Position numbers and translations under genes: made by a program. From an uncultured Pirellula sp. (GTDB lineage Bacteria > Planctomycetota > Planctomycetia > Pirellulales > Pirellulaceae), in NCBI GenBank assembly GCA_903837255.1, contig CAILTZ010000637.1, positions 1 through 12,677 on the forward strand: DNA of 12,677 bases. Reading direction: 5' to 3'. This document shows, in pieces, positions 11,308 through 12,677 of this stretch. The notes under the pieces were generated by a model. The model searched no databases. It was not told where the DNA came from and saw only the letters and a list, made by a program, of their open reading frames with translations. Within the stretch, counting starts at the first letter, position 1, and the number at the start of each line of letters is the position of its first letter.

Positions 11308-11381
11308 GGCGAAGTAGCTCAGTCGGTTAGAGCAACGGCTTCATAAGCCGTGTGTCGCCGGTTCGAGTCCGGCCTTCGCTA
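11308..11381 (+). tRNA. tRNA-Met (anticodon CAT)
   Basis: A 74-nt cloverleaf: acceptor GGCGAAG/CTTCGCT (G1-T72 wobble), D arm GCTC..GAGC, anticodon stem ACGGC/GCCGT around TTCATAA, a variable loop, T arm GCCGG TTCGAGT CCGGC and discriminator A. The shape fits elongator tRNA-Met; tRNA-Ile2 (lysidine-modified CAT) cannot be fully excluded from sequence alone. CCA is not encoded. A T-rich tail (TTTTCTCTTT) follows and may help termination. Confidence 0.93.
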
Positions 11382-11414: not shown

Positions 11415-11668
11415 CGTAGGGTGTGGTGAAGCGGTCGGCCAATCATTTACCAAGCCACCGATACACGCCAATCCACCCTCATCATTTCGCCCCAACGAGC
11501 CCATCGACCGCGCAACCCACCATCGAGCATGGGATCCTCTTGCGGCACCCCGCGCGCATGGTACGTTCCGCGGTCCGTTTGCGTGGCGACGTTTGCCGAG
11601 CGATCGTTGTGGTCGATGCGTTGGCGGTTGTTTGGGTGGTAACCCGGACCGCTTCACGAACCCTACGG
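11415..11668. repeat. REP-like complex repeat, left copy with inverted ends
   Basis: The 254-bp element starts with CGTAGGGT..GTGAAGCGGTC (11415-11436) and ends with its near reverse complement, GACCGCTTCACGAACCCTACG (the 21 bases of 11647-11667, of which 20 after the first G are written here without the final G in strict count). GTAG therefore faces inward from both ends (11416-11419 plus; 11663-11666 minus). Just inside the left end CGGTCGGC (11432-11439) pairs with GCCACCG (11454-11460) in a 7-bp stem with one bulged C. Confidence 0.8.
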
Positions 11669-11695
11669 AACCACCGCGTATCGAAAGCCACCCCG

Positions 11696-11813
11696 GCGCG
11701 CATGGTACGTTCCGCGGTCCTTTCGCGTGGCGACGTTTACCGAGCGATCGTTGTGGTCGATGCGTTGGCGGTTGTTTGGCGGGTGACCCGGACCGCTTCA
11801 CGAACCCTACGGA
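11696..11813. repeat. Duplicated 118-bp right-hand module of the REP-like repeat
   Basis: This segment repeats 11552-11669 at an offset of exactly 144 bp, with few mismatches, and both copies are preceded by CACCCCG. It includes the conserved GCGCGCATGGTACGTTCCGC start and the CCCTACGGA end, carrying CTAC (GTAG on the minus strand, 11807-11810). It lacks the left-hand part of the element. It ends 3 bp before the transposase stop codon. Confidence 0.85.
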
Positions 11814-11816
11814 GGA

Positions 11817-12365
11817 CTAGCCGAGCTCGATATTCGCGATGTGGGCGGGAACCGTGCTGCCCCAGCCCTCGTGGTAATGCCCCATTTTGATGTACTTGTG
11901 AATTGTCGAATAAGGCCAATCGGCGGGCCGGAGTCGATAGCCATGTTTGGTCGGGTTGTAATGGATGTAATCAAAATGGTTCTCAAGGTCCCGTGCATCC
12001 CGAATGCAATGTTCCCAGAATCGCCGCTGCCAAATACCTCGATTCCCATTTCGCTTTTGGGAATCGGTAACAGGAACCTCGTACCCTCCGCTCGCAAGCC
12101 ACGGTTCAGTGAATCCATCCTTGATTCGTTTGAGCCTCGTCGAAAAGTCCTTATCGCCTGAGGGTAAAGACCACAGGCAATGGAAATGGTCTGGCAACAG
12201 AACCGAGGCAATGTTGATAAAAGGCAATTCTTTTTGAATCTCCTGCCAGGATTCGCGAAGCAAATCAATGGCACCTTTTTGACCAAAAAACGGATATCGC
12301 CCATATGTATTAACAGTGAAAAAATAGGTTCCACCGGGTACGTAATATCGAAGATAATCCGACAT
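11817..12365 (-). CDS. REP-associated tyrosine transposase (RAYT, Y1/HUH family)
   Basis: A 182-residue single-strand DNA transposase/nuclease of the Y1_Tnp (IS200-like) superfamily, REP-associated branch. The start is ATG 12365, with GGTGGAG seven bases upstream; the in-frame TTG at 12371 would be too close to that site. Seen in order: GGTYFFTVNT (residues 11-20, first strand of the fold), the metal-binding HUH motif in LLPDHFHCLWSLP (His60 and His62), WQRRFWEHCIRD (112-123), typical of RAYTs, and the catalytic Tyr region YIHYNPTKHG (Tyr133 or Tyr136). Length is normal and no frameshift or stop is present, so it looks intact. In characterised RAYTs the protein cuts and rejoins ssDNA at GTAG next to REP hairpins. 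Here GTAG-bearing repeats flank the gene on both sides, which supports a cognate pair. It converges on tRNA-Met and the flanking repeats. Confidence 0.93.
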   Translation of the reverse strand: MSDYLRYYVPGGTYFFTVNTYGRYPFFGQKGAIDLLRESWQEIQKELPFINIASVLLPDHFHCLWSLPSGDKDFSTRLKRIKDGFTEPWLASGGYEVPVTDSQKRNGNRGIWQRRFWEHCIRDARDLENHFDYIHYNPTKHGYRLRPADWPYSTIHKYIKMGHYHEGWGSTVPAHIANIELG

Positions 12366-12432
12366 GTTCAATCTCCACCTTGAGTCATTGATCCATGTGT
12401 GTCTCCCGATTTTACCAATCCACTGCGATCAA

Positions 12433-12463
12433 CACCCTAATTTGGTAAGGATTTCGTAGGGTG
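12433..12463. repeat. Short inverted repeat at the right repeat boundary
   Basis: CACCCTA (12433-12439) is the reverse complement of TAGGGTG (12457-12463), with a 17-nt loop. The right arm is the start of the right repeat copy. It may be a terminal hairpin or part of a decayed repeat end upstream of the transposase gene. No equivalent is seen at the left copy. Confidence 0.45.
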
Positions 12464-12677
12464 CGGTGGAGCGGTCGGCCAATCATTTACCAAGCCACCG
12501 TCACCCGCCAATCCAACCTCATCATTACGCCCCAACGAGCCCATCGACCGCGCAACCCACCATCGAGCATGGGATCCTCGTGCGGCACCCCGGCGCGCAT
12601 GGTACGTTCCGCGGTCCGTTTGCGTGGCGACGTTTGCCGAGCGATCGTTGTGGTCGATGCGTTGGCGGTTGTTTGGG
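12455..12677. repeat. REP-like complex repeat, right copy (truncated by window edge)
   Basis: This is the direct copy of 11415-11636. The GTAG (12456-12459) and the bulged-stem arms CGGTCGGC (12472-12479) and GCCACCG (12494-12500) are unchanged from the left copy, as is the long block through CGAGCGATCGTTGTGGTCGA. Differences cluster between 12463 and 12530. The left copy has lost one G in the run CCCCGGCGCGC. Confidence 0.88.

Follow-up and report, generated by a model that had tools for sequence, protein, structure and literature searches.

A probable REPtron in Pirellula whose REP hairpins carry an enlarged apical loop

Results

An intact RAYT gene lies between two long direct repeats

The window, i.e., the whole analyzed stretch of 12,677 nucleotides, is contig C637 in its entirety and comes from a fragmented assembly (912 contigs, 83% complete). 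Near its right end, an intact 184-aa frame on the minus strand (11817..12371, start side at 12371 and end at 11817) encodes a predicted RAYT, a TnpAREP-type HUH/Y1 transposase. The protein matches NF047646 (REP-associated tyrosine transposase) with 174 bits (E 1.6e-51), well above the curated cut-off of 80 by which homology defines RAYT membership; its match to Pfam Y1_Tnp stays under the cut-off (E 0.038). The sole PDB match at E ≤0.001 is 4er8 (TnpAREP; E 2.6e-38). In the alignment with 4er8, the HUH motif is present as HFH and the catalytic Tyr lies in YIHYNP, and W94, Q95, E100, H101 and R104 (4er8 numbering), which are discussed as GTAG-recognition residues (PMC6006769), are all conserved. 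Among named RAYT-bearing records, the nearest come from a Planctomycetota MAG, with 91% protein identity, and from an uncultured Pirellula MAG, with 79%. A tRNA gene (11308..11381, plus strand; Rfam RF00005, 72.6 bits) lies 34 nt left of the downstream repeat unit described below. Elsewhere in the window, tandem 10-nt and 9-nt repeats (2016-2149) adjoin the end of a long minus-strand frame (3934-2144).

The intact RAYT frame sits between two repeats in direct orientation, 11415-11636 (222 bp) and 12455-12677 (223 bp), which share 214 identities over 223 columns (96%), just as an earlier note on this DNA had described. That note also had each repeat open with GTAG; the GTAG feet are present, but they begin one base further in, at 11416 and 12456, with a C before each. 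Each unit extends to a second, inverted foot, which in the left-hand unit is located at 11666 on the minus strand. A single giant REP is ruled out by the two feet and two hairpins of each unit. Judged from its sequence, the 222-bp repeat is a REPIN/BIME, in which an A and a B REP, asymmetric and each 104-110 nt long, stand in inverted orientation. The downstream REPIN (11416..11666, unstranded as a whole) comprises REP A (11416..11521, plus strand; 106 nt, with a GTAG foot and a 73-nt interval between the motif arms), a 38-nt spacer and REP B (11560..11666, minus strand; 107 nt, with its foot at 11666 and a 75-nt interval). An extra REP B, i.e., a third half unit (11704..11810, minus strand; 107 nt), lies between this REPIN and the RAYT gene, with its foot 6 nt past the RAYT stop codon. 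The upstream REPIN contains REP A (12456..12561, plus strand), whose foot is 84 nt ahead of the RAYT start codon, and REP B (12601..12677, minus strand), which is truncated by the contig end, has its foot outside the window and is assigned by alignment to the left copy.

In the predicted type A plan, the GTAG foot is followed by a basal stem of 4+3 bp with a one-base bulge and then by a 3×3 internal loop, above which the upper stem reaches up to 8 bp. Type B is built likewise, but its basal stem has 7 bp and frequently includes one mismatched pair (10/26 rows). The 5′ arms measure 19 nt in A and 18 nt in B, one inserted or deleted base apart. In 134 of the 141 long copies collected from the genus (see below), the motif arms are 71-78 nt apart and the REP measures 104-110 nt, beyond the 20-40 bp by which REP size is defined (PMC3733652); the intervals of the remaining seven are 23, 26, 39, 42, 42, 70 and 92. 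The repeat is thus long because otherwise ordinary REP stems hold a 71-78-nt apical interval. The earlier note had described the repeat as far longer than the 20-40 bp of proteobacterial REPs; the 222 bp represent an inverted pair of REPs rather than a single oversized one.

Compensatory changes support the predicted stems of type B. Among 26 type B rows, 4 pairs are changed on both sides, a number reached by 2/500 shuffles, and 14 cells are changed on both sides, reached by 0/500 shuffles; extra pair types are at the shuffled level (250/500). In type B, 96% of cells are paired versus 25-40% when slid, a percentage that is partly built in since the copies were gathered by their arms. In type A (15 rows), the basal stem is invariant and the one compensatory cell is matched by 139/500 shuffles, which adds nothing beyond conservation. 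RNAalifold, run without a supplied structure, returns the same stems for both types and no structure in the loop.

The repeats are dispersed across the genus

The 254-nt unit has matches in 8 of the 27 genus genomes (in G017 by short arm pieces only), and exact matches to its end motif GTAGGGTN{2,3}GTGAAGCGG number 130 in those genomes and 0 for the reversed control, showing that the repeats do not arise by chance. These are the further genomic copies on whose existence the earlier note had made its reading depend, with 47 exact sites in G010, 38 in G001 and only 3 in the fragmented G000. Across the other 214 family genomes, the end motif occurs at 6 sites in 5 genomes, not above its reversed control (7 sites).

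From the fetched stretches, 179 starts were extracted by allowing up to 3 substitutions anywhere in the motif. The exact GTAG is retained in 174 of these 179 starts, GTAG being itself included in the motif. We kept 159 starts, of which 141 belong to long REPs (58 of type A and 83 of type B) and 18 to short ones, and dropped 20, of which 15 yielded no 3′ arm and 5 have a poorer arm or another foot. Long REPs are present in 7 of the 27 genus genomes (G000, G001, G009, G010, G013, G019 and G024), and short REPs passing the filter in four (G009, G013, G017 and G019), one short G000 REP with a degenerate foot being excluded. The arms of the short REPs are identical in type to those of the long ones, with a 6-nt interval and a length of 38 nt in the listed copies (37 nt in one). 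Among the 110 distinct flanks available for long REPs, 97 have a C immediately before GTAG. Where the REPs are paired, as A/B or B/B, the two members are inverted and 9-39 nt apart and form one hairpin-capable unit, as expected for a REPIN/BIME; many others are solitary in the fetched stretches. Two other repeats were encountered alongside the REPs. Of the 8 genomes searched, several contain numerous near-identical copies of a different short palindromic repeat (L132:553-586), which has no GTAG foot in the stretch inspected, and a 50-nt repeat (L010:1825-1874) is dispersed in several genus genomes as copies 82-88% identical.

Close relatives of the RAYT are bracketed by REPs

All four close RAYTs (at least 79% identity: window, L010, L011 and L012) are bracketed by REPs, the distance between upstream foot and start codon being 84, 84, 84 and 80 nt and that between stop codon and downstream foot 6, 6, 6 and 4 nt. 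The genes occupy differing places: the window and G013 copies follow a tRNA or a tRNA fragment, and the G009 copy is located elsewhere. In G013 (L010:280-331), the 3′ part of a tRNA lies left of the RAYT-flanking REPIN where the window has a whole tRNA, possibly an assembly join. The earlier note had proposed a comparison with empty sites in relatives. At the site of the G009 RAYT, G013 has a REP remnant, G019 has REPs running into the contig end, and the syntenic G017 site is occupied by 248 nt of different sequence that matches neither RAYT nor REP; however, the ends of these 248 nt do not coincide with the REPIN borders, and no clean empty site or target site is readable at the loci compared.

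These arrangements bear on what spreads the repeats. An unrelated MITE-like family, spread by another enzyme and flanking the RAYT by coincidence, would agree with the four of eight REP-bearing genomes in which the RAYT was not found (G001, G017, G019 and G024, all drafts; best E 3e-4 or worse). The earlier note had itself named repeats in relatives lacking a RAYT, together with lost GTAG conservation, as evidence against a cognate pair; the former is encountered in these drafts, but the latter is not, with GTAG kept in 174/179 starts. Nevertheless, we consider such a family highly improbable, as 4/4 close RAYTs are bracketed at near-equal distances despite their different places, and the GTAG foot and stem plan fit what the RAYT protein family recognizes. 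Scarcely credible is a TIRtron, an arrangement described for other species (PMC3733652) in which long terminal inverted repeats with no relation to REPs enclose the RAYT. The flanking units are indeed long with inverted ends, yet these ends are GTAG feet on REP hairpins, the same arms form ordinary 38-nt REPs in the genus, and the two flanking units are direct, not inverted. Taken together, the locus is very probably a REPtron, in which an E. coli TnpAREP-type RAYT is bracketed by its own REPINs and the REPs combine canonical stems with an enlarged apical loop (71-78 nt between the arms). The cognate GTAG-footed REP family that the earlier note had assigned to a planctomycete RAYT is thereby supported, as dispersed repeats in a REPtron/BIME arrangement.

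Loops of near-constant length vary in sequence

Loop identity between subfamilies is near random (type B, G000 versus G001: median 0.45 versus 0.40 shuffled), loops inside close groups are alike (type A, G000 versus G009: 0.82), and A and B interiors compared with each other barely exceed the shuffled level (score 7.7 versus 5.4, sd 3.5). A short box (CATT[TC]CG, ATCATT or ATTTCG), picked post hoc from the alignment, is found in 13 of 37 cluster representatives where ~1 is expected, and because of this box the long REP loops probably share ancestry. In the listed positions, it is mostly 27-32 nt ahead of the 3′ arm. The loop strand is poor in G, with 10-14% in type A and 14-18% in type B, but 21% in type B of G001. 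The loops of the 37 cluster representatives fold no better than shuffled sequences (median z 0.02), compared with −1.7 for the whole REP.

As to loop length, 54 close interior pairs contain 35 indels per 333 substitutions. If only 1-2-nt indels are counted, the RMS length difference predicted from this ratio rises from 1.8 nt (K 0.3) to 2.3 nt (K 0.5); if all indels are counted, it rises from 5.0 nt (K 0.3) to 7.1 nt (K 0.6). The cluster representatives, restricted to 68-80-nt intervals so that length outliers are excluded, show an observed difference of 1.6 nt in type A (apparent K 0.44) and 1.9 nt in type B (apparent K 0.51). Hence this rough neutral estimate is close to the observed scatter with 1-2-nt indels and well above it with all indels, which weakly suggests selection on loop length.

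An orthologous REPIN (G009 C188/L132 versus G019 C44/L135) differs at 2/250 sites (248/250 identical), whereas its flanks differ at 22/201 and 9/201 sites (179/201 and 192/201 identical); at this one locus, the conservation may reflect homogenization or selection on the whole unit. At the RAYT locus of G000 and G013, the A interior is identical at 59/73 positions and the gene at 503/549. A hypermutating loop is contradicted by the G009/G019 REPIN, with the RAYT locus as the contrary case. A structured small RNA, whose stems would close a functional loop, has next to no probability: near-constant length, paired ends and the orthologous REPIN with its more divergent flanks would suit it, but the loops are no better folded than shuffled and near random between subfamilies, no Rfam match falls inside the repeats, the A interior stands at 59/73 against 503/549 for the gene at the RAYT locus, and the foot and the RAYT link would be left unexplained.

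A second long-loop family is present in G044

In a FastTree phylogeny of 94 proteins, L014 and L017 are placed as sisters of the window RAYT clade with a local support of 0.95; both carry ordinary short GTAG REPs. Of 90 other RAYT loci, 51 contain GTAGGG no more than 500 nt from the gene. A first long-loop scan, which dimers confounded and which was blind to very short loops, was replaced by a stricter scan over 119 other RAYT loci, i.e., the 90 earlier and 29 planctomycete loci, with at least one record (L033/L297) apparently included twice. By demanding 6 exact pairs beside GTAG, the stricter scan misses some REPs, e.g., bulged ones like type A; it yields a GTAG hairpin with ≤30 nt between 6-bp arms at 99 loci, longer intervals only at 7 and none at 13. 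Among the 7 longer-interval loci, only L016, from G044, repeats one long interval around its gene.

The G044 motif has 124 sites at ≤2 mismatches, compared with 1 in the control. The G044 REPs (L016, L322-L351) are 65 nt in length, and REPINs flank the RAYT on both sides. The upper stems are 30-33 nt apart in 29 of the 32 sites read (29 fetched loci), and the 30 distinct interiors have a median identity of 0.52 versus 0.38 shuffled, with 17% G. Like the window REPs, those of G044 possess a GTAG foot, a basal stem, an internal loop, a GCGG/CCGC upper stem and a variable loop of near-constant length; unlike them, they have ~31 nt between the upper stems and a different stem sequence, and they belong to another family of the same order. 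G044 thus harbors a second long-loop REP family in planctomycetes, which suggests that there are more.

Discussion

Ordinary recognition of single-stranded REPs and their spread as REPINs is the most likely mode of action at this locus, because the window REP keeps the elements that are needed and alters the part that E. coli TnpAREP tolerates. E. coli TnpAREP requires GTAG and the bulge and contacts conserved lower-stem positions, its loop bases are unselected, and the role of the upper stem-loop is structural and non-specific; loop bases are read by other RAYTs (PMC8266576). By analogy with other RAYTs, the window RAYT would bind the single-stranded REP via foot, basal stem and internal loop, cut near the REP and disseminate REPINs, and the long loop would be carried along as a mainly structural, largely sequence-free spacer. 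A bolder proposal, which we regard as unlikely, is that REPs in Pirellulales acquired an additional module in the form of an unpaired loop, near-free in sequence and of measured length (71-78 nt between the arms in one genus, ~31 nt in another family), with selection acting on the length itself. The length might be set by a RAYT dimer, by replication-fork geometry or by a loop-wrapping protein, and RAYT systems would then carry a variable cargo of fixed length.

Studies of REP recognition have so far used hairpins whose loops are only a few bases long. In the sister genomes, the same arms occur with a 6-nt and a ~73-nt interval, a natural contrast by which the contribution of the apical part can be tested directly. 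Surveys designed for REPs with short loops will overlook such families: one accepted either a 2-5-nt loop or a bulged second stem (PMC6006769), and in another unusual loop lengths were discarded (PMC3733652). A literature search for RAYT and planctomycetes gave only PMC3733652 and PMC6006769 as relevant among the titles listed, many subscription papers being outside its coverage, and one for REP and "long loop" gave only PMC3733652. Against the literature searched, the long-loop REP appears to be a new REP variant in what its sequence indicates to be a genuine REPtron.

Among known systems, the TIRtron/TIRYT resembles the window in its RAYT-like gene and long flanking repeats. Its TIRs, as described in PMC3733652, are unrelated to GTAG REPs except for double repeats of P. 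putida/P. fluorescens with degenerate GTAG-1 units, whereas the flanking units of the window end in GTAG-footed REPs. The GTAG REP super-family of Di Nocera et al. 2013, which occurs in Planctomycetes and Chloroflexi too, shares with the window REPs the GTAG foot, palindromic structure, dispersal, dimers and location near RAYTs (PMC3733652). Its loops are mostly of 2-3 bases, large ones being 9-15, and the self-complementary inner region in Bradyrhizobium is up to 27 bp (PMC3733652); by comparison, the window REPs have 71-78 nt between the arms, predicted to be unpaired. The E. coli REPtron (TnpAREP, y/z REPs and BIMEs) is like the window in protein family, GTAG foot, basal stem, unpaired internal loop and upper stem, and also in its inverted pairs with asymmetric arms, the two REPs of enterobacterial REPINs being asymmetric by one base (PMC8049555). 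E. coli REPs measure 29-37 nt (PMC8266576), whereas those of the window reach 104-110 nt by way of the apical interval.
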